Positions 15,466 to 31,767 of a stretch of 64,000 bases of DNA are shown in pieces. The translations under genes were made by a program, and so were the position numbers. The stretch's first letter is position 1; every line of letters begins with the position of its first letter. Origin of the DNA: Desulfopila aestuarii DSM 18488 (GTDB taxonomy: Bacteria; Desulfobacterota; Desulfobulbia; Desulfobulbales; Desulfocapsaceae); contig CAMBBS010000001.1 in assembly GCA_945863875.1 (NCBI GenBank), positions 62,001-126,000 on the forward strand. Direction: 5' to 3'. The notes under the pieces are model-generated. The model worked only from the letters and a program-made list of their open reading frames with translations, was not told where the DNA came from and searched no databases.

Positions 15466-16128
15466 TTATTTCGTGACGGCTTCTAAACAGATTTCGGTGC
15501 AATACTCGACACCAAAACCAATACTGTTTTGCACATGAACTGTTCCGCCAAACAATCCGGCGATAATGCCGGCATAATAGAGGTTTGCCGAGGCCTGGCT
15601 GCCGCTCGATTTATTTCGTTTCCTGTCGGCGGGGAGAAAAAGGGCCTTCTCTTTTTCCAGAGGGATACCAAGGCCCGGGACGGTAAGAACAAAATAGATG
15701 GAACACCAGTTGCCGCTGAATGGCTCCCATTCCACCTCCAGCCCGGCCCCTGCCGAACCGAGATAGGCCTGACTGTAACTGGCGATATCCCAGAGGAGAA
15801 ACCCAAGCATCAACGGCTTGCCCTGGAAAAATCTCGGCAGATCAGGGCTGATGGTCGTGGTCAGACAGTATCCTGTGCGATCGATGGTCCTGTCGTACCA
15901 ATGGCAGAATTCGTCAAGGAACTTATGGAGATCGAATGGTCCTTTGCTGTCGGCAAGACGCCAGCATGCCTGGGCCGGTTCACAGGGCCTTTTGCAGGAG
16001 GAATACCGGGGTTCATTGCCATACGACTCCGGCATGCGGGAGAGGGCATCGAGGGTCTCCGCCGAATACATGGCCTGCCGATTGTCACAATTTGCTAAGT
16101 TTTGGATAGAGAGCAATTTTTCCTCCAT
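15466..16128 (-). CDS. degenerate HATPase-like protein, paralogue of 31207-31767
   Basis: 220 residues, no membrane segment. The C-terminal half resembles the ATP-binding domain of a histidine kinase without any phosphoacceptor domain: SANLYYAGIIAGLFGGTVHV followed by a GFGVEY tail corresponds to the region after the G2 box. The N-box Asn and the Asp of the DxGxG box are missing (PGLGIP instead), so ATP hydrolysis is unlikely. It is clearly paralogous to the product of 31207-31767 (shared FDL-x-xF, CxWY, YLGxxG, KEKxLF and ANLYYAG blocks). It lies 42 bp after a response regulator gene and ends the signalling operon. A TTG at 16116 behind GGAGG is an alternative start. Function unknown. Confidence 0.7.
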   Translation of the reverse strand: MEEKLLSIQNLANCDNRQAMYSAETLDALSRMPESYGNEPRYSSCKRPCEPAQACWRLADSKGPFDLHKFLDEFCHWYDRTIDRTGYCLTTTISPDLPRFFQGKPLMLGFLLWDIASYSQAYLGSAGAGLEVEWEPFSGNWCSIYFVLTVPGLGIPLEKEKALFLPADRKRNKSSGSQASANLYYAGIIAGLFGGTVHVQNSIGFGVEYCTEICLEAVTK

Positions 16129-16170
16129 ACAATGAATGGGTACTGTTTTAAAATCATCCTGGGCAACTTC

Positions 16171-16740
16171 TTACAGATTCCACTCAACCTTGAGCCTTTC
16201 AAGACAGGCCGGGCAGCAGCCGTGTGAAAGGATTATGCCTGTTTTGCATGTCAGATAGTCTTCCCATTGTATCCACTGCACATTTTCTTTATCCCCGCTG
16301 TCATCTTTGACATCTCGACAATAAGCGCAGAGGGTAAGAACTTTTTTGGGGAAGGTGATTTTCTGTCGTTCTTCCTGCCTTTCAAGAAGTTCCGTCAGTC
16401 GAAGCAGCAAATCTTCGGTATCAAGAGGTTTCAGGAGATAATCGTCGGCGCCGAGGCGCAGCGCCTCAACCGCCGATGTCATGTCACCATAGCCGGTGAG
16501 AACCAGGGCGCAGATCGCCGGATTGCGTTTTTTTGCCTGGCGCAATACCTCGATGCCGCTGGGACCGGGCATGACCAGGTCGGTAATGAGCATATTGAAG
16601 TTGTCTTCCCAGAGGGCGCGTATGGCCTCTTCTCCATTGGATGCGGTGGTGACGTGATAGTGTTCCGCCCGAAGATCCCGTGCGTACGAGCGCAGGATGC
16701 TCATCTCGTCGTCCACCAGCAGGAGGGTTTTGTTGGACAT
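16171..16740 (-). CDS. response regulator with C-terminal CxxC metal-binding tail
   Basis: 189 residues. A receiver domain (~1-120) has the acidic pocket VDDE, phospho-Asp in MLITDLVMPGPSG, Thr in LTGYG and Lys in YLLKPL. After a short helix comes a tail with CAYC and, ~35 residues on, HGCCPAC. This is the CxxC-x-n-CPxC module found at the C-terminus of many deltaproteobacterial PAS and REC proteins; it presumably binds a metal, and there is no DNA-binding domain. AAGGAG precedes the ATG. It lies between the kinase gene at 17064 and the degenerate ATPase-like gene. The regulator at 34583-35182 has the same architecture. Confidence 0.88.
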   Translation of the reverse strand: MSNKTLLLVDDEMSILRSYARDLRAEHYHVTTASNGEEAIRALWEDNFNMLITDLVMPGPSGIEVLRQAKKRNPAICALVLTGYGDMTSAVEALRLGADDYLLKPLDTEDLLLRLTELLERQEERQKITFPKKVLTLCAYCRDVKDDSGDKENVQWIQWEDYLTCKTGIILSHGCCPACLERLKVEWNL

Positions 16741-17063
16741 GTGCTACTCCTTCGTAGCTTCCAGAGGGCAGTGTGCCATCTGCCGACTTCTTCTTCGTTT
16801 GGGACCGTATGCGGGCGTCGTCAATTATGCTTATGTGGCGGTATTCTGCCATGGATAGCACTGCTTGCCTAGGTCATAAAATCAGGAATAGAATGGTGAG
16901 GCAGACTACCCATTGGTCGTGGGCCGGGTAGGGGGGGTGGATTTCTGGTCAAGCCCGGAATGACCGTAACGTATCGGTATCACTGCGGTATCGGTAAGAC
17001 TGTGCTGGGGGATGGCTGCGGTGTTGCAATGATGGCGGGGTGGTGCCGGCGGCGGATGTCTCT
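16741..17063. other. intergenic region within signalling cluster
   Basis: About 320 bp without a gene. A direct repeat GTATCGGTA occurs twice around 16970-17000. Nothing else could be assigned. Confidence 0.4.
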
Positions 17064-18422
17064 TTATCTGGCGCGGTCCGGTCCCCTTATGGGCAGGTTT
17101 ATGCGAAATTCCGAACCGTTGCCCGGGCTGCTGTGCACCGTGATGGTGCCGTTGTGATGCCTGATGATGCCATAACTGACGGACAGGCCGAGTCCGGTCC
17201 CTTTGACCTCGGACTTGGTGGAAAAAAACGGCTCGAAGATACGGTCCTGGTGCAGTGGGTTGATACCGACCCCGTTATCCTTGATGATGAGCGTGATGCA
17301 TGCCTGGTCCGCCTGCGTGCTGATGCGGATAATGCCGCCGCCTTCACAGGCATCAACGGCGTTGGCGAGAATATTCATGGCAACCTGTTTGATCTGGTCG
17401 GCGATCGCATACAGGATGGGTATCTGCTCCCCATAGTGTTTCTCGACCCTGATGTTTTTTGTGTCAAACTTCTTTTTGTAGAGCAGCAGGACGCTGTCCA
17501 GCGTGCTGTGCAGGTCAAGAGGCGCACGGGTGCCGGATGTCGGCCGGTTGAAATCCTGCAGTGCCTTGAGCAGGTTGCGCATGCGCTTGCATTCATCGAC
17601 CGCGATGTCCATCAGTTCGCTGTCTTCCGGGTCGAGAGAAACCCGGCGCCTGACGCCCTTGAGGACATTGAGCACGCCCTGCAGCGGATTGTTCAGCTCA
17701 TGGGCAATTGAGGCGGCGAGGGTGCCGATGGCGGCGAGTTTTTCTGAGTGCAGCAACTGGCTCTGCGTTTCCTGCAATTTGATGGTGCGTTGCCGGACGT
17801 GCCGCTGCAGTTCTTTATTGAGGGCGGTAATCTCTGTTTTTGCCTGTTCCAGTGCGGTAATGTCGGTCATGGTCATCAGCACCTGCCCGGCGACCTCTTC
17901 GTGCTCAAGTCGAAGGGCGCTCGCCAGCTGGACGTAGAGGGGCGAACCGTTATCGGTTTTCAGGCGCAGGTGGATGGATTGGCGCTGTCCTGAATCGCGC
18001 AACTGCTGTTTATGCAGGTGAAAGATATCCTGGTCGTTAACATGGATAAATGCGGCGAATTTCCGGTTGAGAAGTTGCCCTTTGGACATGTTCAGCATCT
18101 GCGCGGCCCGTCGGTTCGTGTCGACGATGCGGCAATCGCCGTCAAGCGTCAGATAGCCCACCGGGGCAAATTCATAGAGCTCATTGTAGTTCAGCCGGGA
18201 GATTTCGATTTCCGTCTGGGCAATGCGCAGATCCTCGTTCTGCAGCTCGAGTTCGATTCTGTTGGTGTCGAGTTCGACGATTAATTTTTTGATATTGCCG
18301 TTAAAGATCTCCGGATCCGTCTGCTCGTAATGGTCAAGCAGGTCGAGGGCCCGCCGGCGTAAATCGGCAAATCTTTCATTGGCTGCCTTTTTATGCATAT
18401 ATGCCTGCCGTCCATGGATCAA
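17064..18422 (-). CDS. PAS sensor histidine kinase
   Basis: 452 residues, soluble. A helical N-terminus is followed by a PAS domain (~85-205: YEFAPVGYLTLDGDCRIVD through MTDITALEQA), a coiled coil, the phosphoacceptor motif AASIAHELNNPLQG (~255) and a HATPase domain with NILANAVDA, DNGVGINPL and GTGLGLSVS. All catalytic residues are present. Its ATG overlaps the stop of the CheB-CheR-PAS gene as ATGA, so they are translationally coupled. It is very similar to the kinase at 33576-34370, which has lost its phosphoacceptor His. The likely partner is the regulator at 16171 or the receiver-containing proteins across the insertion. Confidence 0.92.
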   Translation of the reverse strand: MIHGRQAYMHKKAANERFADLRRRALDLLDHYEQTDPEIFNGNIKKLIVELDTNRIELELQNEDLRIAQTEIEISRLNYNELYEFAPVGYLTLDGDCRIVDTNRRAAQMLNMSKGQLLNRKFAAFIHVNDQDIFHLHKQQLRDSGQRQSIHLRLKTDNGSPLYVQLASALRLEHEEVAGQVLMTMTDITALEQAKTEITALNKELQRHVRQRTIKLQETQSQLLHSEKLAAIGTLAASIAHELNNPLQGVLNVLKGVRRRVSLDPEDSELMDIAVDECKRMRNLLKALQDFNRPTSGTRAPLDLHSTLDSVLLLYKKKFDTKNIRVEKHYGEQIPILYAIADQIKQVAMNILANAVDACEGGGIIRISTQADQACITLIIKDNGVGINPLHQDRIFEPFFSTKSEVKGTGLGLSVSYGIIRHHNGTITVHSSPGNGSEFRINLPIRGPDRAR

Positions 18423-21512: not shown

Positions 21513-21529
21513 CACGGATAGACAATCCC
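21513..21529 (+). repeat. attL: 17-bp direct repeat CACGGATAGACAATCCC
   Basis: Identical to 31129-31145. It lies ~290 bp upstream of the integrase gene and 122 bp from the start of the CheB-CheR gene. The sequences on either side diverge at once, as expected for an attachment core. Confidence 0.85.
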
Positions 21530-21582
21530 AAAAATAGCCTTTCACACACTTTCACTTAGCCACACTTCAACACTGTTTTTCA

Positions 21583-21612
21583 TTGCACAAACAAATACAT
21601 ATCGTGTATAAT
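21583..21612 (+). promoter_or_regulatory. sigma-70-like promoter for integrase
   Basis: TTGCAC (21583-21588), 18-bp spacer, TATAAT (21607-21612), inside the left end of the element. The tandem GAGCGGTACAG repeats follow ~45 bp downstream and could repress this promoter. Confidence 0.55.
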
Positions 21613-21656
21613 GCTTCATATATCGTAATTTGCTTTAATTCGATTTAACACCATTA

Positions 21657-21770
21657 GAGCGGTACAGGAGCGGTACAGGAGCGGTACAGAATTTCAAGAT
21701 TAGCTACACACGGACTATTTGAACGGATTTTTTGAAGGTTGCCCCACCTTTGTACCGCTTTTGTACCGCT
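21657..21770 (+). repeat. left-end iterated repeats GAGCGGTACAG, three direct and two inverted
   Basis: Three head-to-tail 11-bp copies of GAGCGGTACAG (21657-21689) are followed by two inverted copies TTGTACCGCT (21750-21759 and 21761-21770). Two more copies lie just inside the right end (31019-31039). This arrangement, at both ends near the att cores and next to int, fits arm-type binding sites for integrase or excisionase; operator or iteron function is possible. Confidence 0.7.
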
Positions 21771-21818
21771 TGTCGCATCTATCAAATTGATTTCTAAAAC
21801 AAAAAAAAGAGGCTACCC

Positions 21819-23012
21819 ATGGCGATATGGACAAAATGCAAGACAACCGGCATAAGGTTTCGTTTGCACCCTACCCGGAAACATGGCGTTAATTTTGACA
21901 GGTATTTCACCATTCGATACAAGGTTGACGGTAAAGAGAAATCCGAGGCGCTTGGATGGTCGAGCAATGGATGGACGGAAACGAAAGCGGCAGCGGCACT
22001 TGCCGAGCTGAGGGCAAACCATACCATGGGTGAAGGTCCGCGAAGCCTTGCAGAGAAAAGAGATATCCGGGTACAGGCAGAGATAGAAGCAACTGAGCGC
22101 GAGCAGGAAGAGAAGGCCCGGAATATTACTTACGGTGAGATCTTCACAGATCATTACTATCCACATGTGCAGCATAACCGGAGAAATCAGAGGAGTATCA
22201 GGCGGGAAGAGGATTTACATCGCCTGTGGATTGCCCCTGTTCTCGCTGACAGGCCAATCAGGGAAGTAATGCCCATTCACCTGGAGAGAATAAAAAAGAA
22301 CATGCTGAAGGCAGGAAGGGCACCCCGAACCGTTCAATACTGCCTTGCCGTTGTCCGGCAGTTATTCAACTACGCATTAAACAACAATCTCTTTGAAGGG
22401 AAGAACCCGGCAGGCGCAACAGGTGGAGTAAAGCGCCCAAAGGTTGATAATCGCCGAACACGTTTCCTGTCCAGGGAAGAGGCGGCGGACATATTAAAAA
22501 TATTGTCAGATCGGACACCTAATGTTCACGATATCGCGCTATTTGCTCTCTACACAGGCGCAAGAGCAGGGGAGGTTTTCAATCTGAAATGGGGCGATGT
22601 TGATCTGTTCCAGGGCGTGGCGATGCTGAAGGACACAAAGAGCGGAAAAAACAGGGCGGTATACCTCACTAAAGAGGTGAAGAATATGCTGGCCCACAGA
22701 CGACCGGAAAACGCACAGGGGGGGGCTCTCGTATTCACAGGGCGGGACGGTATAAAGATAATGAGGATATCGAATAGTTTTACCAATGTGATAAACGAGC
22801 TGAAACTTAATGAAGGCGTTACGGACCCGCGACAAAGGGTAATGTTCCACACTCTGAGACATACCTTTGCAAGCTGGCTGGCGATGGACGGTATAAATCC
22901 TTTTCACCTCAAAGAATTAATGGGACACTCTGATTTAAAACTGACAGAGCGGTATAGTCACTTGTCGGAATCGACATTGAAACAGGCGGCGATGAGAATA
23001 AGCCAAGGATAA
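21819..23012 (+). CDS. int: tyrosine recombinase integrase
   Basis: 397 residues. An N-terminal DNA-binding region (~1-95) precedes a SAM-like core-binding domain (~105-190) and a catalytic domain (~215-390). The catalytic set is complete: Arg249 (TGARAGE), Lys274 (TKSGKNR), His344/Arg347 (HTLRHTF), His370 (MGHSD) and Tyr379 (ERYSHL). It should catalyse integration and excision at the 17-bp repeats. The start is set by AAAAAAGAGG 8 bp upstream. As in P4-type and PICI elements it lies at one end of the element next to attL, reading inward. It is followed by a structured intergenic segment. Confidence 0.95.
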   Translation: MAIWTKCKTTGIRFRLHPTRKHGVNFDRYFTIRYKVDGKEKSEALGWSSNGWTETKAAAALAELRANHTMGEGPRSLAEKRDIRVQAEIEATEREQEEKARNITYGEIFTDHYYPHVQHNRRNQRSIRREEDLHRLWIAPVLADRPIREVMPIHLERIKKNMLKAGRAPRTVQYCLAVVRQLFNYALNNNLFEGKNPAGATGGVKRPKVDNRRTRFLSREEAADILKILSDRTPNVHDIALFALYTGARAGEVFNLKWGDVDLFQGVAMLKDTKSGKNRAVYLTKEVKNMLAHRRPENAQGGALVFTGRDGIKIMRISNSFTNVINELKLNEGVTDPRQRVMFHTLRHTFASWLAMDGINPFHLKELMGHSDLKLTERYSHLSESTLKQAAMRISQG

Positions 23013-23020
23013 AAATATTT

Positions 23021-23076
23021 TCACCGGGATAGGTTCGCTACCGAAAAGCCGTGAACCCTGACGGCCTGCCCGGTGA
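23021..23076 (+). terminator. nested stem structure after integrase gene
   Basis: TCACCGGG (23021-23028) pairs with CCCGGTGA (23069-23076), enclosing GGTTC (23032-23036) with GAACC (23053-23057) or CCGT with ACGG. It follows the int stop by 9 bp and precedes the next gene. It could end or attenuate int transcription; a small structured RNA is another possibility. Confidence 0.5.
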
Positions 23077-23105
23077 TTCTTTCAGGGTATCTTTATGGGT
23101 GAGAT

Positions 23106-23792
23106 ATGAAAAATGTTCGAGAGTATTTTCAAAACTTGTGTGATGGATCTAAGCCTGTTGACCTAGATCTCTATTTTGACCAAAAAGCAAATATTCTGGA
23201 ATCTGTCATGCAACACTATTCCACAGAATATGGTTCTTCTCTGCGGGAGGAAGAACCCGACGAAGAATCTATTTTGCCGGTTCATCAAGAACCAATTTTC
23301 ACATCTAACGGCGAACTACTGATTGCATTATACGACGAAATTCTTTCAGACAACTATGTTCCACCGTTCGACAATCTCACCGGGTTACAATTTCACCTGT
23401 ACGCATTATGGACATTTTACAATGTCGTCAGACCTGAAGAAATCACACTCGAGACCCTTCTTAAATTAGACTTGGCAACAATCAGACTGATTAGCATTGC
23501 AGCACCTGCAGCGGTATTAATGAAACCCATTACAGCGAAAAAAAAGCAACGACGAGGTGTACAGGGAGGCAAGGCTCGTCAAAAAGAAACGACACGGCAA
23601 GATGTTTTTGATGCCTATAAATCAATGGGTGCCTATTGGACTGATGGAATAAAACCAATTACCGTTGGAGAGGAATCTTTTTCGATAAGCGGCTTTGCTT
23701 TGAAACAGATAATAATCCAGGCGGGGGTGAATTTGGATCAAAAAACCGTTATCGGTCATTTAAAAGAACTCAAAAAAGATGGAATTATATAA
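23106..23792 (+). CDS. hypothetical protein of the satellite, possible winged-helix C-terminus
   Basis: 228 residues, not recognised. The first ~80 residues are acidic; a basic stretch with KKKQRRGVQGGKARQKE (~140-160) could contact nucleic acid; the last ~60 residues (ISGFALKQIIIQAGV, TVIGHLKELKKDGII) look like the recognition helix and wing of a winged-helix domain. Position after int and before the HTH/primase block is where satellites usually place their regulator. A GGGTGAG ribosome site precedes the ATG. A role as transcriptional regulator is plausible but unproven. Confidence 0.6.
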   Translation: MKNVREYFQNLCDGSKPVDLDLYFDQKANILESVMQHYSTEYGSSLREEEPDEESILPVHQEPIFTSNGELLIALYDEILSDNYVPPFDNLTGLQFHLYALWTFYNVVRPEEITLETLLKLDLATIRLISIAAPAAVLMKPITAKKKQRRGVQGGKARQKETTRQDVFDAYKSMGAYWTDGIKPITVGEESFSISGFALKQIIIQAGVNLDQKTVIGHLKELKKDGII

Positions 23793-23831
23793 TATAATTC
23801 CGAACTGAATAATATAAGTCGGAAGTATATA

Positions 23832-23853
23832 ATATGCTGTAATTGCAGCATAT
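23832..23853 (+). repeat. 8-bp inverted repeat upstream of HTH gene
   Basis: ATATGCTG and CAGCATAT separated by 6 bp, in a very AT-rich gap that also contains repeated TATAATATAA-like stretches (23785-23835). Candidate operator/promoter region for the HTH-primase gene block, or a weak terminator. Confidence 0.4.
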
Positions 23854-23923
23854 TTCACAAGGCCGTAAAGTGTCTCACATAGCAAGCCGATAACCGGCGG
23901 GCATGGATTTAAAGAGGCACTTT

Positions 23924-24166
23924 ATGGAATCATCTCTTAGACAATCTGCAGCAAAAGTCATTCAGGAATCAGCAGCAAATTACCCCACAAGGTTTATTGC
24001 CCGGTCGGAAGTAAAGAGATTCACCGGCGGCGTATATTCGTCGGGCTATCTTGCGAACCACGATTCAATGGGCACTGGCCCTAAAGGCGCTTTCAAAATT
24101 GGTCGGCAAAAATGTTATCCAGTCGATAGCCTGTGTGATTGGCTTGTCGAACGGCTGGAGGCGTAG
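23924..24166 (+). CDS. AlpA/excisionase-like helix-turn-helix protein
   Basis: 80 residues from the ATG at 23924, chosen because AAAGAGG lies 6-7 bp upstream; an upstream in-frame ATG at 23903 has no ribosome site. The second half (TRFIARSEVKRFTGG, SGYLANHDSMGTGPKG, KIGRQKCYPVDSLCDWLVERL) has the MerR/AlpA-type winged HTH layout: recognition of a promoter or att site, a wing, then a YPVDSL-x-x-W helix. In P4- and PICI-like elements such genes act as excisionase or activator. It opens a run of four genes (23924-26483) linked by 3-bp gaps or 4-bp overlaps. Confidence 0.75.
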   Translation: MESSLRQSAAKVIQESAANYPTRFIARSEVKRFTGGVYSSGYLANHDSMGTGPKGAFKIGRQKCYPVDSLCDWLVERLEA

Positions 24167-24169
24167 CCG

Positions 24170-24346
24170 ATGACCCAAGAACAAAAAATCAGCGCAATCA
24201 ACAGCCTTTGCCTGACCAATCAATTCGGGTTACTCGCTCAATTAATGACATCGATGCCGGGTAGCCTTGCAATTCTTTTGAGCGATCGACCTGCGGAACA
24301 GAAACGGCGCGACCTGCTAAAATTGTTGAAGGAGGGCGCGAAATGA
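24170..24346 (+). CDS. small hypothetical protein (58 aa)
   Basis: A 58-residue reading frame starting 3 bp after the HTH gene stop and overlapping the next gene by 4 bp (ATGA). The product begins MTQEQKISAINSLC and ends KRRDLLKLLKEGAK; it is amphipathic and helical. It is unrecognised. Support comes from the tight spacing and coupled start/stop within the primase operon. Confidence 0.6.
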   Translation: MTQEQKISAINSLCLTNQFGLLAQLMTSMPGSLAILLSDRPAEQKRRDLLKLLKEGAK

Positions 24347-24477
24347 CGGCAAAAAGAAACCCTGGCCAGGTGGTGACACACCCGGCGCAGGGCAAAAACA
24401 AAAGCAATCGACGTTTGTATAATAAGCCCCCAATCCGCAAACAGCAAGTTTTTTTACGGCGCGGGGGTAGACGATGA
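24343..24477 (+). CDS. small basic hypothetical protein (44 aa)
   Basis: A 44-residue, strongly basic protein (MTAKRNPGQVV ... NKSNRRLYNKPP ... LRRGGRR). Both its start and its stop overlap neighbouring genes as ATGA, so it is flanked by two translational couplings. The composition suggests nucleic acid binding, but no family is recognised. Confidence 0.55.
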   Translation: MTAKRNPGQVVTHPAQGKNKSNRRLYNKPPIRKQQVFLRRGGRR

Positions 24478-26483
24478 CCGCACCCTATACAGCAATATAT
24501 TCCTCAGTTGGTAATCTTGATTTTCTGGACAGCAGCTTCAGCGATGAGATGACCACCTGTGACCAGTATGCCAATGTTCCGGATGAACTCCGCGGCAAAA
24601 GCAATTGGCTTGTCTGGAAGCTTATCCCAAATGAAGACCCGACCAAAAAACCGCGAAAAGTACCCTTCAACCCACGAACAGGGGGGCTTGCAAGTAGCAC
24701 GAACCCGACAGATTGGACAACGCTCGGTGAGGCCCTGGCGGCTGTTAATGGCGGCTCATACACAGGGGTGGGGTTTGTGTTCGATGGAACCGGCATCGTC
24801 GGTGTTGACCTTGATAATGTCCGCGATCCTGCAACAGGGACGGTCGAACCATGGGCGGAAGATGAGATAAACTACTTTGGATCATATACGGAAGTCTCCC
24901 CCAGCGGGACCGGCTTTCATATCCTGTGTAGGTCCGACCTCCAGCACATTGGCGTGAACAATGGACAGGTAGAAATCTATTCCAGCGGGCGATTCTTCAC
25001 AGTCACAGGCAATCTGTACGATGAAGGCCTGAACACCCTGGAGGATTGTTCCGAGCAACACCGGCGGCTGTACACTGAATATGCACCGAAAAACAAACAG
25101 ACCGATGCGCAACCGGCAGCAACCTGTGACCGCTCAGTAATGACCGCTGAAGACAAAACACTGTGTGACCGGATAGGCGCCAGCAAGCAAGGCGAGAAAT
25201 TCACCGACCTGTTTACTGGCCAGTGGTCAGAGAAATATCCGTCACAGTCTGAGGCGGACATGGCGATGTTGTTTATGCTCGCTTTCTGGACCGGCAAGGA
25301 TAGCAAGCAGATGGATAGAATTTTCCGATCTTCGAGGCTACACCGCGACAAATGGGACAGTATGCGCGGTGACACCACTTATGGGCAAATCTGCCTGGGG
25401 CGGGCGATATCCGGCACAGGTGATGCTATCGGCAGCAAGAGCCCTACCCATTACAGCGCTGAAGATCTGAGCCCGGCACCACCGGCGGCGAAGGTTAACA
25501 AGTTTCAATTTGTTCCTGCTGCTTCGTTACAGTGTAACACTCAGATAGAATGGCAAATCGAAGGTGTCATGGAGTATTGCGCTTTCTCTTTGATGTTTGG
25601 CGATAGCGGCACAATGAAAAGTTTTGTGGCGCTGGACATGGGGCTGTGCATCGCCACCGGAATTGATTACCACGGCAGGAAAGTCAGGCAAGGTCCTGTT
25701 GTAATCATCATAGGCGAAGGTTTGGCCGGATATGGTCGCAGGATAGCAGCATGGTCAAAATATCACGGCATCGACCTGACAGACCACCCGGTATTCGTTT
25801 CGACCATGGCGGCGCAATTTCTGGACGATAACAGCGCAGGAGAAGTTGAAGAGGCTGTCAACGCTATATCCATGAAATACGGAGAGGTCCGGCTGGTAAT
25901 CGTTGACACTTTGAATCGAAATTTTGGACCAGGCGATGAGAGCAGCACCGCCGATATGACAAAGTTCATTGGAGCGCTTGACATGCGCCTGGGGAACAGA
26001 GTCACGAAAATGATAGTTCACCATACAGGCCATGGGGACAAGACCAGGGCGCGAGGAGCATATGCACTCAAGGCAGCGCTTGATTGTGAGATCCAGATAA
26101 GCCGTTTGCTTGGAAAAATAGTTCTGACCAACACGAAACAAAAAGATGCACCGGAATTTTCTCCTATCACATTTGATTCACAGGTAGTCGACCTGGACCA
26201 CGAAGGCGAGATTGATTTACTCGACCCCATGACATCTTTGGTCTTGACCGAGAACGACGAAACACCACACGAGAAGCATCCGTCACTGTCTCCCAAAATG
26301 GGAATGGCGCTCTCATTATTGGACTTAATGAACAGAAAAAGCGGTCCTACTTGCCTCTCTCATTGGATGCACATGTGCGGTGAGGAAAAGGTGTATAGCA
26401 AGTCGCCTTTCTACACAGCTACTAAGACCATGGAGGACAAGAAGGTTATTGTAATATCAAATGGTTATGTAATGCGGTCCTAG
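24474..26483 (+). CDS. satellite replication protein: AEP primase fused to RepA-type helicase
   Basis: 669 residues. The N-terminal ~200 residues form an archaeo-eukaryotic-type primase/polymerase domain: metal-binding VDLDNV (Asp112, Asp114) and SPSGTGFHI (His149) are the first two catalytic motifs. A linker leads to a RepA/RecA-fold ATPase with Walker A GDSGTMKS (376-383) and Walker B LVIVD (474-478). Together these would prime and unwind an origin, so the element can replicate autonomously after excision. The ATG overlaps the previous stop (ATGA). Iterons begin inside its last codons and continue downstream, as in SaPI rep-ori modules. The C-terminus (~580-669) may be a DNA-binding domain. 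Confidence 0.88.
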   Translation: MTAPYTAIYSSVGNLDFLDSSFSDEMTTCDQYANVPDELRGKSNWLVWKLIPNEDPTKKPRKVPFNPRTGGLASSTNPTDWTTLGEALAAVNGGSYTGVGFVFDGTGIVGVDLDNVRDPATGTVEPWAEDEINYFGSYTEVSPSGTGFHILCRSDLQHIGVNNGQVEIYSSGRFFTVTGNLYDEGLNTLEDCSEQHRRLYTEYAPKNKQTDAQPAATCDRSVMTAEDKTLCDRIGASKQGEKFTDLFTGQWSEKYPSQSEADMAMLFMLAFWTGKDSKQMDRIFRSSRLHRDKWDSMRGDTTYGQICLGRAISGTGDAIGSKSPTHYSAEDLSPAPPAAKVNKFQFVPAASLQCNTQIEWQIEGVMEYCAFSLMFGDSGTMKSFVALDMGLCIATGIDYHGRKVRQGPVVIIIGEGLAGYGRRIAAWSKYHGIDLTDHPVFVSTMAAQFLDDNSAGEVEEAVNAISMKYGEVRLVIVDTLNRNFGPGDESSTADMTKFIGALDMRLGNRVTKMIVHHTGHGDKTRARGAYALKAALDCEIQISRLLGKIVLTNTKQKDAPEFSPITFDSQVVDLDHEGEIDLLDPMTSLVLTENDETPHEKHPSLSPKMGMALSLLDLMNRKSGPTCLSHWMHMCGEEKVYSKSPFYTATKTMEDKKVIVISNGYVMRS

Positions 26484-26575
26484 AGTCCTAATGCGGTCCT
26501 AATGCGGTCCTAGTACCAAGGTGCAGGTCGGTAGTCCTAGTCCTACCCCCCTTTAGGGGTAGGACAACTAGGACT
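26471..26575 (+). repeat. candidate replication origin: iterons plus nested hairpin
   Basis: Three 11-bp copies of AATGCGGTCCT (26471-26481, 26490-26500, 26501-26511), the first within the end of the rep gene, are followed by a long inverted repeat: GTCCTACCCC/GGGGTAGGAC (26540-26549 with 26556-26565) inside AGTCCTA/TAGGACT (26533-26539 with 26569-26575). Iterons plus a hairpin directly after a primase-helicase gene is the usual form of a satellite or plasmid origin. The hairpin could also be a terminator, but no T-run follows. Confidence 0.6.
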
Positions 26576-26622
26576 GCACAGAAAATGAAAAAAATCAGTC
26601 AAAAACAAACGAGAGGCTAAAA

Positions 26623-26844
26623 ATGACAAAACCGAAATCACCAATTTTCAAACACGACCACCCGACAGTACCTGATGCATGCCGTCTTTGTTGGGCGCTC
26701 CAGGTCCGAAAAATCGGCGGCAGGTGTCAGAGTGGATGCACCCCACAACACTGTGAATGGCAGGCACATCCTGCGAACTTTACCGGACGACCATGCGATC
26801 CGTCGAGAGTTGAAAATATGCTTCCCACAATGGAGAATCTATGA
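26623..26844 (+). CDS. small Cys-rich protein, possible zinc binder
   Basis: 73 residues with CRLC, then CQSGC and HC spaced like a small zinc ribbon, and a C-terminal PCDPSRVE. GAGAGG lies 8 bp before the ATG. It overlaps the next gene by 4 bp. No family is recognised; the location after the origin suggests an early satellite function. Confidence 0.6.
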   Translation: MTKPKSPIFKHDHPTVPDACRLCWALQVRKIGGRCQSGCTPQHCEWQAHPANFTGRPCDPSRVENMLPTMENL

Positions 26845-27011
26845 CCACAAACCTTTTTTATCCAAATGACGTTTCACGGCAAAAGATGCTGGCAGACTTC
26901 GATATATTGATTGACGCTATCGCCGCTCGAGATCAGGCCGCAATTCCGACCGAAACGACTTTACCCGAAAATAACGATGACATTATGTCGTCAGAACCAG
27001 AGGAAATATAA
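26841..27011 (+). CDS. small acidic hypothetical protein (56 aa)
   Basis: A 56-residue frame whose ATG overlaps the stop of the Cys-rich gene (ATGA). The product is acidic (DFDILIDAIAARDQ, ENNDDIMSSEPEE). It is unrecognised. The next gene starts 1 bp after its stop, so it is part of one operon. Confidence 0.55.
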   Translation: MTTNLFYPNDVSRQKMLADFDILIDAIAARDQAAIPTETTLPENNDDIMSSEPEEI

Positions 27012-27012
27012 T

Positions 27013-27309
27013 ATGAGCGGCAAATTGAAAATCTCTGAGAGTTTGATTGTCTGTGCTGATTTTATCAAATCGGCGGAAACGGCACGACCTGACGTTGTTG
27101 TCAACAGCCTGCTTGATTTGGCCCTGCAATTGGTACGCGCAACGTGTTTACCAGGGACCGACGAAGAGACTATTACCGTGCTTGCGGTCTATACAGCCAC
27201 TCAGGTATTGGAGCGATCCGAGGTGAATCTTGAAAAAATGATATCCGATGCAGAGTACGAGGCGGCGCATGCTGAAGACATCGCACGTTCAGGCGGAACC
27301 CTTCAGTAA
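27013..27309 (+). CDS. hypothetical protein of the satellite (98 aa)
   Basis: 98 residues from the ATG at 27013, which has AGAGGAA 6 bp upstream; the same frame is open further upstream but that part overlaps the preceding gene. The product is an all-helical, slightly acidic protein (ISESLIVCADFIKSAETARPD, LLDLALQLVRATC). It is not recognised. It is followed after 2 bp by the next gene. Confidence 0.6.
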   Translation: MSGKLKISESLIVCADFIKSAETARPDVVVNSLLDLALQLVRATCLPGTDEETITVLAVYTATQVLERSEVNLEKMISDAEYEAAHAEDIARSGGTLQ

Positions 27310-27311
27310 CC

Positions 27312-27749
27312 ATGCAGAGAATCAAACATTTACTCTCGGTTTTGGCGACGATAAACAAACACGGCGACCGGGCGGCGGCGGAATGGTTTTCTAAGGGATG
27401 CCGTCAATATCTTACCGGCGCACAGGACACACTCGACAAGGCTTGTGGGCTAACATCGACCTCTGGCAAGTACAAGGCCAGAACACTTTGGGCGCGGCAA
27501 GAACGGGACCGTCTTATCAGGCAGGCAATGACCTTCATCGACCCTGACCTTGGACATACCAGGCGCTGTGAGTTGTTGGCCGATCAGATACGCAGTTTTG
27601 AGGCTCGCATATGGCCGAGGCTGAGAGATCTTGATGAGCTGCCGGCGGAGGTATCGGAGTTGAGAAAATCGCTATGGTTGGCGAAGAGAACCGGCGCGAG
27701 CCTTCCGGCTACCTGGCGCGGAGTATATCGCTCTGTTTATGGGTATTAG
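27312..27749 (+). CDS. hypothetical protein of the satellite (145 aa)
   Basis: 145 residues, basic and rich in Arg/Trp (NKHGDRAAAEWFSKG, ARTLWARQERDRLIRQA, WRGVYRSVYGY). It is predicted helical and not recognised. It starts 2 bp after the previous stop, so it is coupled. It is unusual in being strongly basic in contrast to its acidic neighbours. Confidence 0.6.
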   Translation: MQRIKHLLSVLATINKHGDRAAAEWFSKGCRQYLTGAQDTLDKACGLTSTSGKYKARTLWARQERDRLIRQAMTFIDPDLGHTRRCELLADQIRSFEARIWPRLRDLDELPAEVSELRKSLWLAKRTGASLPATWRGVYRSVYGY

Positions 27750-27880
27750 TGACTGAATTTATGTCAGGAGCCTACCTGCTCTTGTCAGGAAAAAAGTGGT
27801 CTAATGATTTTATCAGCAGGACAAAACAGGGTATTCACCATGAAGGCGATACCACAAATCAAATTTACGAGGCTTTAAAA

Positions 27881-28051
27881 ATGAAAGAGAGAGAGAATTT
27901 AGATTACACCGATCAGAAATGTTATGACGCTTGTAAACTTCGCTGGGAAAGAGAGCCTAAATTAAAAGAGGAATATCTCGAATTCGATAACTTTTTTGCA
28001 TTCCAACGTGCAGACGAAAAAGGCCGGATCAGGATTGCCGGGAGACGCTAA
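27881..28051 (+). CDS. small hypothetical protein (56 aa)
   Basis: 56 residues from the ATG at 27881, chosen because ACGAGG lies ~9 bp upstream. The frame is open back to 27674 (possible starts at 27674 and 27762), which would overlap the preceding gene. The product is rich in charged and aromatic residues (YTDQKCYDACKLRWERE, EFDNFFAFQRADEKG). Its stop overlaps the next start by 1 bp (TAATG). It is unrecognised. Confidence 0.5.
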   Translation: MKERENLDYTDQKCYDACKLRWEREPKLKEEYLEFDNFFAFQRADEKGRIRIAGRR

Positions 28052-28575
28052 TGCTGTTCGATAAAGGCCTGCAGAAACTTAAGGAAAGCATAGGGATCTT
28101 TGCTACCGAGGCGGAGAAAATCAAGCGTGACCTGAGCGAAAAGCTGGACCGGCGCAGTGACTTGATGACCTTGCCATTACCTCAGCATGACTTTGCCGAT
28201 TCAGTTTGTGAAGCGATCGACAGCGGCCTGGGAACCGACTTCAGCAGGCGTTTGCGCCATACGATGGACCTTGCCATAAGCCAACCTCTTCAGCCAATTG
28301 GAAACGAGCGATTTAATCCGCTCACCACGTTCGATGCTACCAAGCTTGACCATGCGGGGATATTGTTCTGTATGAAGGACAGTATCAAGGCAGGAGTCCG
28401 CGAAACTATCATGAGCTGGACCGACTGGGCGAAGGAGTGCGGACCAACCAGGGCGGAACGGCTGAAGGAATTAGCAGCACTGGACAAACAGATTGAAGCA
28501 CTGCAGGAGAAGCTTACAAAGATCCATGGCATTGCAAGCGATCAAGGCGTTAACCTATCAGGCCTTGGTCGATGA
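28051..28575 (+). CDS. hypothetical protein with C-terminal coiled coil
   Basis: 174 residues. The N-terminal helix (LQKLKESIGIFATEAEKIKRDLSEKL) and the C-terminal helix (RAERLKELAALDKQIEALQEKLTKIHG) are coiled-coil-like; the middle has no recognisable motif. It is coupled to the preceding gene by a 1-bp overlap. It is the last gene before the structured gap that precedes the small terminase. A role in capsid-size redirection or packaging is possible by position only. Confidence 0.55.
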   Translation: MLFDKGLQKLKESIGIFATEAEKIKRDLSEKLDRRSDLMTLPLPQHDFADSVCEAIDSGLGTDFSRRLRHTMDLAISQPLQPIGNERFNPLTTFDATKLDHAGILFCMKDSIKAGVRETIMSWTDWAKECGPTRAERLKELAALDKQIEALQEKLTKIHGIASDQGVNLSGLGR

Positions 28576-28892
28576 AGTATCACCCCTGTGTGCAAATGTC
28601 GGGTAAGGCAGGGGTATTGCTCCACCCTCACAGAACCTCATGGGCTTATCGCTTCTCGACTTGGCGGCAGGCTGTGCACTGTGAGGAGATCCACCCCATA
28701 TAGTGTGGGACCTCAAACCTGCAGGCGGCGCGAAAGTGTTTGCTTGCAGGTTTTTTTATTGAATTAGGTTATGTGATTGATATTGTTAAAACATTTGGGT
28801 CCTTACGGGCGTTTCCGAATGAGGGTATTTCGGCAGCTCGATATATCTCTAATTACAAAAATGTAATTCAAAAACTACTACTTTAAAAAAAA
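28576..28892 (+). other. structured non-coding gap before small terminase
   Basis: 317 bp without a gene. Inverted repeats: ACCCCTG/CAGGGGT (28582-28588 with 28609-28615); CTCACAG/CTGTGAG (28627-28633 with 28679-28685); AAACCTGCA/TGCAGGTTT (28713-28721 with 28743-28751), the last followed by a T-run and so a good intrinsic terminator. Phage and satellite packaging sites often lie directly upstream of terS, so this gap is also a candidate cos/pac region. Confidence 0.5.
28713..28755 (+). terminator. intrinsic terminator
   Basis: 9-bp stem (AAACCTGCA/TGCAGGTTT) with a 21-nt loop, followed by a run of T residues. It would end the early operon that starts at the HTH/primase block. Confidence 0.65.
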
Positions 28893-29330
28893 ATGATAGC
28901 CAATCGATCAGAGACAGCAGATATTTTTGGAGTAGCCAAAAGCACATTAGACACATGGCGGCGCGATGGATGCCCCGTGATAGAAACGGGCGGCAAAGGT
29001 TTTCCGTCGAAGTATGATTCCGTAGCCGTTTTCAAGTGGCTGTTGGCACGAAACGAGATTGAAGATTATTCAGTGTTGCTCGACAAAGAAAGATACCTGA
29101 AGTTGAAACGAGAAAACGAAATCGAGGATAAACTTGTCGCTCCAATCGAATTGCTTACCGATGCACTTCAGCAAGTGGCGGCTCAAATGGTGCCGCTACT
29201 CGAATCCTTGCCCTTGAAGATGAAACGGAACAATCCTTCCTTGACTGGCCACGACATAACGCTTGTTAAAAAGGCAGTGTGCGAGTGCCGGAATCTCATT
29301 GCAAAAATAAAACTCGACGCAGATGATTGA
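28893..29330 (+). CDS. terS: small terminase subunit, lambda Nu1-like
   Basis: 145 residues. The N-terminal ETADIFGVAKSTLDTWRRDG, CPVIETGGKGFPSKYDS and VFKWLLARNEIED closely follow the layout of lambda Nu1 (winged HTH, GGGKG loop, YDS-x-AVxxW). A helical oligomerisation region follows. TerS recognises the packaging site and recruits the large subunit. No large terminase, portal or capsid gene follows, which is the hallmark of satellites that hijack a helper's TerL. No ribosome site is visible before the ATG (A-rich AAAAAAAA instead). It overlaps the next small gene by 8 bp. Confidence 0.78.
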   Translation: MIANRSETADIFGVAKSTLDTWRRDGCPVIETGGKGFPSKYDSVAVFKWLLARNEIEDYSVLLDKERYLKLKRENEIEDKLVAPIELLTDALQQVAAQMVPLLESLPLKMKRNNPSLTGHDITLVKKAVCECRNLIAKIKLDADD

Positions 29331-29532
29331 CCGCGATCAGCTCGGAACCTTGATAAAGAATTTTTCCACAGATCAACAAGCGGTACTTTCGGAAATTGCC
29401 AAACGCCTGGCAATAATCAAAATTGAGCATTTTACCGGGCAGATCATTTTTGAAGTGGTTTACAGCAAGAGTGATATTGTCGATGCGTCCGTAACGACAA
29501 AAAGCAAAATCAGGATAATAGCGAAAAGGTAG
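29323..29532 (+). CDS. small hypothetical protein (69 aa)
   Basis: 69 residues overlapping the end of terS by 8 bp. The product (NFSTDQQAVLSEIAKRLAIIKIEHFTGQIIFEVVYSK) has a helix followed by strands. It is unrecognised. Overlap with terS suggests co-translation. Confidence 0.5.
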   Translation: MIDRDQLGTLIKNFSTDQQAVLSEIAKRLAIIKIEHFTGQIIFEVVYSKSDIVDASVTTKSKIRIIAKR

Positions 29533-29539
29533 AGATCCA

Positions 29540-29788
29540 ATGGAAATTATACAGCAGAACCAACACGACCGACCGCGACCAACCCGGCAGCTATGCCGAG
29601 GAAAATCATATCGCCTGAAAATCGAAGACTTGCTTACTGATTGCGGAGAGCTCGACACATCGATGTCTAAATGGTGCGAGCACCGCCGGGATGATGGAGC
29701 CATTCTTTTCCTTTCGTCAGATCATGGCAAAGGTCATGCTCAGCTAGAAGCGCGGAGAATGGGCGTTGAGAGCCTTTTTTCGTGGTAG
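29540..29788 (+). CDS. small hypothetical protein (82 aa), possibly decayed
   Basis: 82 residues starting 7 bp after the preceding stop with a weak AGAG ribosome site. It contains MSKWCEHRRDDGAILFLS, not matched to a family. It is the last complete frame before the decayed ParB-like segment, so it may itself be a remnant. Confidence 0.4.
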   Translation: MEIIQQNQHDRPRPTRQLCRGKSYRLKIEDLLTDCGELDTSMSKWCEHRRDDGAILFLSSDHGKGHAQLEARRMGVESLFSW

Positions 29789-29864
29789 CCTGTAGTTTTC
29801 CCCTTTCCGGTGAATAACACCATATATTCGAAATTGCTCGTATTCATAAAATTATCATTAGTGA

Positions 29865-30224
29865 TTCCTTGCCCTGGACCAACCACCTTTGGTCGAGCGT
29901 CAACGCGGGATTTTGGAGGCACAGGCTAAGGCTCGGCAGGTTGCAACACAGATAAAAGGTGGCTCTCCTCCGGTGGGGTCACAAGTGACCCCACCGGACG
30001 AAGGGAACGAAATCCCCGATGGGCCACAAGTGGCCACTCGGGACAAACATAAGGCTCGGAAGATTGCCACACAGAACAATAAGGCGGCTGGAGCTGCCCT
30101 CAAATCTGAGGGCAGCAACCCCTACAACGGCAAGACCCGACCCTTTACCGTAAATTTATGGAAAACCCAAGATCGACCAGCAACGGAGCCGAGCATATTT
30201 AAGGCGCTCAGAATCTCCGTTTAA
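29865..30224 (+). pseudogene. ParB-like gene remnant, copy 1
   Basis: The frame (stop just upstream, no proper start) encodes PPLVERQRGILEAQAKARQVATQIKG and then an unusual tail (see hairpins at 29970-30116). The first ~85 bp are near-identical to 30766-30860, so the segment was duplicated. The upstream catalytic part of the ParB-like domain is missing. Confidence 0.55.
29970..30116 (+). repeat. three successive hairpins in ParB-like remnant
   Basis: CCGGTGGGGTCAC-AA-GTGACCCCACCGG (29970-29997, perfect 13-bp arms); an imperfect 13-bp stem with the same AA loop (30015-30042); GCTGCCCTCA-AATC-TGAGGGCAGC (30093-30116, perfect 10-bp arms). The first two share the core CCACAAGTGG/TCACAAGTGA, suggesting iteration of one hairpin unit. 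Confidence 0.65.
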
Positions 30225-30516
30225 ACCGGCATTCCCGCAACAGAATATCCAATCACTGATACCATTATTAATTACACGCTCAGAACGTCAGAATAAGCCA
30301 TTCTAAGAGCTTCCTTGCATGGCCCGGGCTCTGGCAAGCATTACCTGTGAAAACGCTGTCATGCGCCAATCAGGCAGCATAACACAGGACGGCACATGCA
30401 CATCTACAATCAGTAAGCGGCCATTGTCAGGAATCGACATTTACGACGATACAGGCGATTATTTAGTTGTTCAGGTAGGTATTTCTTGATGGGCTATCCA
30501 TTAGAAGGGATAATAA
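30225..30516 (+). other. mostly non-coding stretch with one possible 56-aa frame
   Basis: No recognised gene. A 56-codon frame at 30319-30489 (ATG after AAGAG; product with LSGIDIYDDTGDYLVVQVG) is possible but weakly supported. An IR-like GAGCTTCC...GGCCCGGGCTC occurs near 30307-30331. Confidence 0.3.
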
Positions 30517-30969
30517 TCCATTTTCAGTACAGGCAAGGTCGGCACCGGCGATGATATTTTACATGGGCGCGGCCAGGTTGGAGGGCATAGGCGGCTGGTA
30601 GCCAAATCTGGTAGCCAGGCTTGTGTCCACGGTTACGCACCGAAAAGCACCAAGCACGGCATCGAGTACCGGACAGAGCAGGCGGACATCTCAAATCGTG
30701 ACGAAGCTGTTCTGTGGATCATCAAGAATCAGCTCGGACGACGAAATCTTCAGGCTATTGACCGGGTTCCATTGGTCGAACGCCAACGCGGGATTTTAGA
30801 GGCGCAGGCTAAATTGCGGAAAGAAGCAACACAGATGAAAGGTGGCTCGCCTCCGGTGGTAATAGAATCCCGACAACCGGAAAAAGGAAAAGTTGCAGAC
30901 GCTTTAGCAAAAATCTTTTTTTATGTCCAGCGGGGAAACGTTTCCGGAAACGGAATTATGCAAGGGTGA
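30517..30969 (+). pseudogene. ParB-superfamily gene remnant, copy 2
   Basis: The frame runs open from the stops at 30511-30516 but has no start codon in a sensible place. Its translation contains GQVGGHRRLVAKSG, then DISNRDEAVLWIIKNQLGRRNL and VERQRGILEAQAK, which is the end of a ParB/Spo0J-like N-terminal domain as seen in plasmid and phage ParB-like proteins. The N-terminus is lost and the C-terminus (QPEKGKVADALAKIFF) shifts into unrelated sequence. It is the last element gene before attR. Confidence 0.6.
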
Positions 30970-31018
30970 TTCTGGGAACCAGCCTGGATAATTATTTTCA
31001 GGGCATGAAATATTTTAG

Positions 31019-31039
31019 GGCGGTACAGGAGCGGTACAA
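31019..31039 (+). repeat. right-end copies of GAGCGGTACAG repeat
   Basis: Two tandem copies (GGCGGTACAG, GAGCGGTACAA) 90 bp inside attR, matching the three direct copies near attL. Likely arm-type sites for the integrase/excisionase. Confidence 0.65.
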
Positions 31040-31128
31040 AATGACCTGAACGCAAAAAAGCAATTAAAAAGAAGTGCTCTAAGTGCTTGATATAAGAGTT
31101 AAAGTAGAACAGATTACGACAATCGAAT

Positions 31129-31145
31129 CACGGATAGACAATCCC
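31129..31145 (+). repeat. attR: 17-bp direct repeat CACGGATAGACAATCCC
   Basis: Perfect copy of 21513-21529, 61 bp beyond the last codon of the degenerate ATPase-like gene on the minus strand. Removing one repeat plus the intervening DNA would restore a compact minus-strand signalling cluster. Confidence 0.85.
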
Positions 31146-31206: not shown

Positions 31207-31767
31207 TCAAACCGGACTGCTTAAGAGGCGGACCTTAATCTGGTACCGTGTACCAGAGCCGAAGCTGTTTTCCACACGGATAGCGCCGCCGAGAATGGTG
31301 GCAATCACCCCGGCATAATAGAGATTGGCCGAACGCGACGAAAAACCATCCCGGGTTGTTTGCCCTGCCTGTCCAGGCGGCGGCTGGAAAAGATCTTTTT
31401 CTTTGGCCGGCGGCATGCCTTTGCCGGGAGAAATTATGTTGAAGTGAATTGCGTAGCGGCGACCGGCGAGCTGCTCCGGTTCTATTTCCAGAAAGACCCC
31501 GCCGGCGCCTAGGTAGAGGAGGCTGTTTCTCGCCGTCGCAAAAATGAGGTGCCTGGTGAGCAGGGGATTGCCGAAGAAATATCGTGGTATTGCCCCGCTG
31601 ATTTTCATTCTCAGTCGCAGGTTTCTTTCGGTCAGGACCTGTTTGTACCAGCTGCAGAAATTATTAATCAGGGCCAGGAGATCAAACTGCTGCCTGGCCA
31701 AACCAGCATCCAGTGATGGTGCAGAGGCCGGGTTTGTTTTTTCTCTGTATATCTGCACGCAAGTCAT
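31207..31767 (-). CDS. degenerate HATPase-like protein, paralogue of 15466-16128
   Basis: 186 residues, cytoplasmic, with no phosphoacceptor domain. It shares with the product of 15466-16128 the blocks FDLLALINNFCSWY, FFGNPLL, YLGAGGVFLEIE, PGKGMPPAKEKDLF and SANLYYAGVIATILGG followed by a GSGTRY tail. An N-box-like Asn is retained (ARNSLLYLG) but the DxGxG loop is SPGKGM, lacking Asp, so ATP turnover is doubtful. It could act as a kinase-binding scaffold or anti-kinase. It follows the REC-PAS-LuxR gene after 171 bp, at the end of its operon and just before the integrated element. Confidence 0.7.
   Translation of the reverse strand: MTCVQIYREKTNPASAPSLDAGLARQQFDLLALINNFCSWYKQVLTERNLRLRMKISGAIPRYFFGNPLLTRHLIFATARNSLLYLGAGGVFLEIEPEQLAGRRYAIHFNIISPGKGMPPAKEKDLFQPPPGQAGQTTRDGFSSRSANLYYAGVIATILGGAIRVENSFGSGTRYQIKVRLLSSPV

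Follow-up and report, generated by a model that had tools for sequence, protein, structure and literature searches.

We analysed a stretch of 64,000 nucleotides from Desulfopila aestuarii DSM 18488 (contig CAMBBS010000001.1, positions 62,001 to 126,000), called the window in what follows, and in particular a block of genes within it that is far better read as a phage satellite than as anything else. As an element it is real and well delimited: an exact 17-bp direct repeat, CACGGATAGACAATCCC, bounds it on the left at 21513..21529 and on the right at 31129..31145, as cores of left and right attachment (att) sites, attL and attR, would. When the 4.69-Mb assembly is searched with up to one mismatch, this core is found at the two ends of the element only. 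The span from core to core is 9,633 bp, with a GC content of 0.479 versus 0.557 for the remaining window, and all convincing genes are on the + strand, as are the features below unless stated otherwise. A preliminary description of this DNA had reported an AT-richer, one-strand block of 9.6 kb between perfect 17-bp repeats, and these points are confirmed.

Inside the cores lie integrase arm-type repeats. The unit GCGGTACA occurs three times at the left end (starting at 21659, 21670 and 21681; 21659..21688) and twice at the right end (31020 and 31031; 31020..31038), and these five are all the direct copies in the window. The inverted unit TGTACCGC occurs on the - strand twice at the left end (21751 and 21762; 21751..21769), and once more in the window, at 49696. 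A 19-bp repeat, GCGGTACAGGAGCGGTACA, which contains the unit GCGGTACA, recurs at both ends, about 130 bp inward of the left core and 90 bp inward of the right one. A single tyrosine integrase would be expected to have its two attachment sites laid out in this way, with a core and arm-like repeats at each end. No gene is cut by the insertion, which is intergenic: a signalling gene of CheB/CheR type, identified by reading its open reading frame (ORF), starts at 21391, and the next gene on the other side ends at 31207.

The order of the genes is int, an orphan of 228 amino acids (aa), a winged-helix gene of 87 aa, two tiny ORFs, a primase-helicase gene, iterons, about five small orphans, an orphan of 174 aa, a gene for a terminase small subunit (TerS), a gene of 69 aa, and a tail. 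Three of them have clear family matches in Pfam and PHROG, in agreement with the preliminary description: int (21819..23012, 397 aa) encodes a tyrosine integrase (PF00589, E 6.3e-27; phrog_1, 4.5e-65); the primase-helicase (24474..26483, 669 aa) matches the NrS-1 HBD family PF22763 (1.3e-25), AAA_25 PF13481 (2.4e-24) and phrog_1829 (1e-84); and terS (28893..29330, 145 aa) is of the Nu1/lambda type (PF07471, 1.8e-16; phrog_57, 1.3e-21; lambda Nu1 structure 1j9i, 1.1e-10). A putative replication origin (26470..26640) combines GTCCTA iterons with an adjoining AT-rich stretch: six direct and two inverted copies at 26477-26574 form the densest such cluster in the window, and no second iteron set was seen beside this one.

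Iterons and many orphan small genes had both been announced, and the small ORFs indeed lack confident family matches. The 228-aa orphan (23106..23792), between int and the winged-helix gene, has a weak C-terminal winged-helix match (PF13412, E 0.062) and no match in PADLOC. The two tiny ORFs of 58 aa (24170..24346) and 44 aa (24343..24477) have no PHROG match at E<=1; the overlapping small ORFs of 26623..28051 (73, 56, up to 132, 145 and up to 125 aa) and the 174-aa orphan (28051..28575) have no confident match. IMG/VR holds no viral relative of the 228-aa orphan, and no close relatives of the primase, TerS, or the 174-aa and 145-aa orphans. Comparing the orphans with other elements (2,366 comparisons, with shuffles) gives a single z of 6.8, for the 174-aa orphan against locus L106, all others being at most 5.3. 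Upstream of terS, a hairpin followed by a T run (28711..28757) is a possible terminator, by sequence and predicted fold, between terS and the genes before it; a consensus terminator scan missed it, and consensus promoter and terminator scans both remain at background level.

Of the element's proteins that were scanned against Pfam and PHROG, none matches a family of lysis, tail, capsid or portal proteins or of the terminase large subunit (TerL). Since no ORF other than int and the primase-helicase gene exceeds 228 aa, TerL, portal and the usual capsid gene are absent, as had been claimed. Behind terS come the 69-aa gene, which overlaps it (29323..29532), and the tail (29540..30969), poorly coding by reading, which holds two copies, 84% alike, of a 91-bp segment (29886-29976 and 30769-30859). 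Each copy lies close to where an ORF begins, with LVERQRGILEAQAK or a similar sequence, and has no family match.

Relatives of the element

Integrase relatives were collected in two scans. The scan of named genomes gave 437, and the locus set consists of the best 80, mostly from Desulfobacterota (Deltaproteobacteria), with some from Alphaproteobacteria and others; from IMG/VR, 80 of 450 relatives were retained. Relatives at 76, 70 and 69% stand at loci L050, L051 and L052, the last in Desulfopila sp. IMCC35006 (G005), of the same genus.

The ends were tested at 45 loci, namely the window, L081 and 43 of the 80 named-genome loci, by requiring that the region before int and a stretch downstream share a direct repeat, 18 bp or longer (17 for the window). 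Such a repeat bounds 23 of the 45 loci, versus 7 of 439 mismatched locus pairs; here the window is scored by its 19-bp arm repeat. The element recurs as a family. The spans range from 7.0 to 30.4 kb, and 16 of the 23 are at most 13.3 kb. In most loci the initial search covered about 10 kb downstream; it was extended up to 38 kb, as far as the contigs reached, in 21 more, 18 of which were testable, hence the spread of sizes to 30 kb. By reading of their ORFs, some long spans contain large non-phage genes (L123), mixed genes (L150) or host-like signalling genes (L105). In L116, from a metagenome-assembled genome of Desulfovibrio, 27.5 kb with nif-like ORFs (also by reading) lie between matching tRNA-like repeats around an integrase relative. 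Some of the long spans, L116 included, may be chance pairs of tRNA genes or repeats.

In 10 of the 13 relatives first delimited, a tRNA gene found by ARAGORN overlaps the right-hand repeat: Phe and Arg three times each, and Ala, SeC, Thr and Val once each. No tRNA gene is found at the insertion site in the window. Its core agrees with the anticodon arm of the tRNA-Phe at L148 in 12 of 16 positions, against 10, 10 and 6 for three other repeat ends, a likeness that is no more than suggestive. As there is no tRNA here and the core resembles a tRNA-Phe anticodon arm, the insertion may be at a secondary site. The tRNA-Phe gene of this genome (L286:1-76, G000:C23) lies exactly at a contig end, where the repeats of relatives start, and a second element might sit there.

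A candidate for the empty site, a 17-mer with one mismatch in G014, was rejected: its flanks have no colinear similarity beyond the core. This is the single such copy among the 92 other genomes of the family, a chance-like result given an estimated expectation of about two matches per 93 genomes. The criterion that prophages never use the attachment site of a PICI (phage-inducible chromosomal island) therefore has no second site here to be compared with.

Excisionase-like and packaging genes

The preliminary description had called the 87-aa gene (23903..24166) AlpA/Xis-like. Only the fold bears this call out: Pfam recognises no AlpA in 11 members of the winged-helix family, and the excisionase RdfS is the best match of the model, though a weak one. 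The AlphaFold model, based on 36 sequences, has a mean predicted local distance difference test (pLDDT) score of 93.6. The top match of Foldseek is the RdfS excisionase 8dgl (E 8.8e-3, probability 1.00), no match being at or below 0.001. VIA-align scores Z 6.7, with 2.9 A over 55 residues, level with a MerR-family regulator and followed by rows that include a phage Xis and the Xis of Tn916; Z values this low may reflect no more than a common arrangement. We take RdfS to come from a symbiosis integrative and conjugative element (ICE).

The position of the gene relative to int points the same way. Among 53 named-genome loci in which at least 4 kb follow int, profile A2 finds a same-strand match no more than 7 kb from int in 30, versus 0 of 45 in the upstream control; for the IMG/VR loci, which hold more distant integrase matches, the count is 5 of 55. 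Fold and co-occurrence together weakly suggest an excisionase, or recombination directionality factor, of winged-helix type.

The TerS gene matches packaging TerS families, its structural match 1j9i included, which speaks against a non-packaging helix-turn-helix family. Judged by sequence, the protein is made of a predicted N-terminal Nu1 winged-helix DNA-binding domain and a predicted C-terminal TerL-binding region. According to PMC6739421, residues 100-181 of the lambda TerS bind TerL, whereas DNA is bound by the N-terminal domain.

These two parts have diverged at different rates. In a phage of a same-genus genome, G006, a relative of TerS is followed by a gpA-type TerL; the TerS of the window and that of this phage are identical in 11 of 65 positions (17%) in the N part, up to residue 68, versus 41 of 77 (53%) in the remainder. 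The satellite L114 and the TerL-bearing IMG/VR record L281, in which TerS and one small ORF precede a protein 31% identical to the TerL of N15, compare as 13/84 and 28/60; N15 and phi80, as 20/71 and 74/94, and N15 behaves alike with HK225 and O276. Most of the other pairs, 45 in all having been compared, have little bias or the opposite one: 25/65 and 17/76 for the window and the lambda-type O276, 33/69 and 28/95 for P24 and N15. A TerL-binding half that is conserved beside a DNA-binding half that is not is what would be expected of a TerS by which a satellite redirects the terminase of a helper to satellite DNA. On the simplest reading, the TerS of the window would recruit a helper TerL of the G006 type and direct it onto satellite DNA.

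The 69-aa gene resembles a 76-aa ORF that follows terL in the G006 phage, with a score of 66 when the maximum of 5,000 shuffles is 47, and it overlaps terS as terL does in that phage. It was considered as proof of a phage cassette from which terL was deleted. This has weakened to a suggestive link, because the C-terminal part of a zinc-ribbon-like protein from another genus (G208), not a phage protein, matches it about equally (score 62, z 11.2). Neither the 69-aa gene nor its phage relative has a match in phage records.

Several families of TerS are found in the relatives. A phrog_57 search at E<=0.001 matches 30 of 48 genomes or records, mostly weakly and over short lengths, and 6 of 14 control genomes as well; consequently, only strong matches inside elements are used. 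Two repeat-bounded relatives, L114 (8.3e-28) and L117 (6.4e-22), have a Nu1-type TerS of this family and no recognised TerL. The repeat-bounded L148 has a TerS of another family (phrog_4102, 7e-15), and no TerL was found in it; a third family, phrog_1889, occurs in the Desulfopila element L052/L091. At L347:2467-7786, from another family of the same order (G081), int, an excisionase-like gene and a primase (by reading) accompany a P27-like TerS, whose match to PF05119 (4.8e-5) is just under the family cut-off; the ends of this locus are not delimited.

For a tally of gene content we took 97 ORFs, 96 from 13 relatives plus the TerS of the window, after setting aside int, the presumed primases and the excisionase-like genes as well as short ORFs (those below 70 aa and, on the minus strand, most of those below 100 aa). 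The 25 families listed, of 69, include TerS and a baseplate hub, and no TerL, portal or capsid. The same three are absent from the 25 families listed, of 32, for the 28 long ORFs of compact copies, a set that further omits the L089 baseplate-hub gene along with many of the shorter ORFs. With the majority of bounded copies at 13.3 kb or less, this answers in the negative the question of whether the related copies are simply full prophages.

Larger relatives exist. L280 and the repeat-bounded L141 have three long proteins in common, at 50, 55 and 67% identity: one of 306 aa weakly matches the structure of a major capsid protein (3j4u, E 0.0023), the 582-aa one has no match in PDB, and the two others than the capsid-like protein appear, by reading alone, to be TerL- and portal-like. 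Because L280 and L141 share capsid-like and TerL-like long proteins, the family probably includes capsid-forming members. L280, L141 and L282, the last judged from ORF reading alone, each measure about 15 kb and carry genes that resemble those for TerL and capsid.

A probable phage satellite and the alternatives

We estimate at roughly 80% the probability that the block is an integrated phage satellite working like a Gram-negative phage-inducible chromosomal island (PICI), in the particles of a lambda-type (Nu1/gpA) helper with cos packaging. The tyrosine integrase, helped by the excisionase-like protein, would recombine the 17-bp cores by way of the GCGGTACA arm sites. The excised element would replicate from the iteron origin with its own primase-helicase, and spread in the particles of the helper, whose TerL the satellite TerS would capture through its conserved C-terminal half, while its divergent N-terminal half would steer the terminase to satellite DNA.

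The interpretation as a PICI-type satellite, put forward earlier, is supported, with formal membership in the PICIs established only in part. An integrase, a replication module and a regulator in one-direction order, which are asked of a PICI, are all here, provided that the winged-helix gene acts as the regulator. As in PICIs of the EcCICFT073 type, where AlpA activates transcription, int comes first, transcription runs in one direction, and there is a small winged-helix regulator or excisionase, a primase and iterons; also shared are the lack of structural genes, a length of about 10 kb and an implied lambda-type cos helper (PMC6092414). Contrary to this type, the winged-helix protein is not recognised by Pfam as AlpA, most delimited relatives are at tRNA genes, and, where a PICI has two iteron sets on either side of an AT-rich region, one dense set with an AT-rich stretch next to it was seen; the length of 9.6 kb is below the 12-15 kb of a typical PICI, and the element carries a full-length cos-type TerS, whereas EcCICFT073 has none (PMC6092414) and relies on Rpp to redirect that of its helper (PMC6739421). 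The islands of Staphylococcus aureus (SaPIs) that encode TerS likewise combine it with the TerL of the helper, but theirs serve headful (pac) packaging (PMC6092414), and the one of the element is of the Nu1/cos type. The capsid-forming PICIs find a parallel in the sister elements L280 and L141, with related integrases and TerL- and capsid-like genes, which the window element lacks. Finally, the terminases of lambda, N15 and phi80 share with the element a Nu1-type TerS with halves that diverge at different rates, but here no TerL gene follows.

Several observations weigh against this reading. No cos site was recognised in the element: a 10-bp match to the cosB of lambda upstream of terS was rejected, being at chance level (284 of 1484 control windows and 63 of 500 shuffles do as well). 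Nothing in the assembly that holds the element, which is 98.5% complete, matches the G006 TerL, and a search of it with phrog_2, the one TerL family tried, gives a sole match (E 5.5e-5) in an ORF read as RecD-like; consequently, no fitting helper is found resident. Over the 93 genomes of the family, 8 match the G006 TerL, at full length in G006 and at 22-31% identity in the others; helpers foreign to the strain of a satellite are reported (PMC11389934). Among the compact relatives, the 10.2-kb L089 has a baseplate-hub gene (16106-17113; phrog_196, 1e-75), also present in L050, and L125 encodes a minor-tail-like protein (phrog_329, 1.2e-7). No bounding repeat was found at 22 of the 45 loci, 12 of which offered less than 10 kb downstream and 10 of which were searched over 14.6-38 kb. 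Of the 13 delimited relatives, L081 has no excisionase-like match, and L148 and L131 have it on the strand opposite to int. Most of the small genes are without relatives, phage and plasmid records contain no near-identical DNA copy of the element, and the other 14 genomes of the genus offer no close homologue of the right flanking gene (best E 2.7e-13, 23% identity) by which to place an empty site. The last 1.5 kb or so seems poorly coding, and may be in decay.

This last point also belongs to a first alternative, which we consider improbable: the block would be a decayed remnant of a larger element, a capsid-forming satellite or a lambda-like prophage, and the pair formed by TerS and the 69-aa gene would be the scar of a deleted TerL. 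The order TerS, TerL, 76-aa relative in the same-genus phage agrees with it and, since some 15-kb relatives carry TerL- and capsid-like genes, a loss from a larger satellite is conceivable. However, other repeat-bounded copies also carry a TerS, of one family or another, and no recognised TerL, the 69-aa domain is found outside phages too, and int, the excisionase-like gene, the primase, the iterons and both repeat sets look intact.

A second alternative concerns the function of TerS, which might be a packaging redirector of the Rpp type rather than a true TerS. The PICIs of E. coli use Rpp to redirect the TerS of the helper, by binding it (PMC6739421), and RppC (6hlk) is among the PDB matches of the window protein, with E 2.8e-4 over residues 4-58. 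The resemblance is weak: lambda-type TerS structures match far better (1.1e-10), and the C-terminal half, with which the lambda protein binds TerL, shares 53% identity with its counterpart in a phage TerS, while the C-terminal part of RppC serves dimerisation (PMC6739421). We consider this slightly less probable still. Least probable of all is an integrative element without phage packaging, an island resembling integrative and mobilizable elements with the Nu1-type gene as a recruited regulator: it accords with relatives in which no TerS was recognised, with large relatives whose cargo reads as non-phage and with the likeness of the excisionase-like protein to RdfS, presumably an ICE protein, but is opposed by TerS homology over the full length, TerL-binding half included, by the several TerS families of the sister elements, and by the scans of the element's proteins, in which no relaxase family came up.

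Returning to the phage satellite, the relatives invite a wider conjecture, for which we would give even odds: a family of satellites in Desulfobacterota and other lineages would share one module of integrase and excisionase-like gene, mostly targeting tRNA genes, and freely swap packaging modules (Nu1-type, P27-like or other TerS, or TerL with capsid); their TerS would join a satellite-specific DNA-binding half to a helper-specific TerL-binding half, and some would carry defence cargo, one of them, in the same genus, a type I-E CRISPR-Cas system. What is new lies at the level of this family, namely a different small regulator, tRNA targeting, a cos-type TerS of its own, and cargo; the block itself is one further member. 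In limited searches of one open-access library, which leaves many subscription papers and bioRxiv preprints uncovered, we found no report of phage satellites in Desulfobacterota, sulfate-reducing bacteria, Deltaproteobacteria or Desulfovibrio. If the conjecture is true, sulfate-reducing bacteria and their relatives commonly host PICI-like parasites of phages. Sister elements that combine one integration module with several packaging strategies would make the origin of satellites testable, and the half-and-half conservation of TerS would provide a rule by which helpers could be predicted from genome sequences.

A sister element with CRISPR-Cas genes

The Desulfopila sp. IMCC35006 relative (G005:C92, L249:363-8680, L052) is an att-bounded, TerS-bearing element of 22.3 kb that contains a type I-E system of clustered regularly interspaced short palindromic repeats and associated genes (CRISPR-Cas). 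In the 50 kb searched there are exactly two copies of a 52-bp repeat derived from a tRNA gene, 22.3 kb apart, and inside both the same 21-bp repeat, GTTGTACAGGGGTTGTACAAA; the right copy is within a tRNA-Arg(tcg). Between TerS and the right end lie genes for Cas8e, Cas11e, Cas7e, Cas5e, Cas6e, Cas1e and Cas2e; an ORF of 1,107 aa before them appears, from ORF reading only, to encode Cas3. To judge by their titles and abstracts, the papers listed for satellites with CRISPR-Cas in the open-access library all concern V. cholerae. The sister element suggests that satellites can move adaptive immunity.

Its array has 33 repeats and 32 spacers. Spacer 8 matches the IMG/VR contig L174 in 29 of 32 bases, and also the major-head gene of Mu-like Pseudomonas phages (E 0.2); the capsid gene of a Mu-like phage is a possible target.

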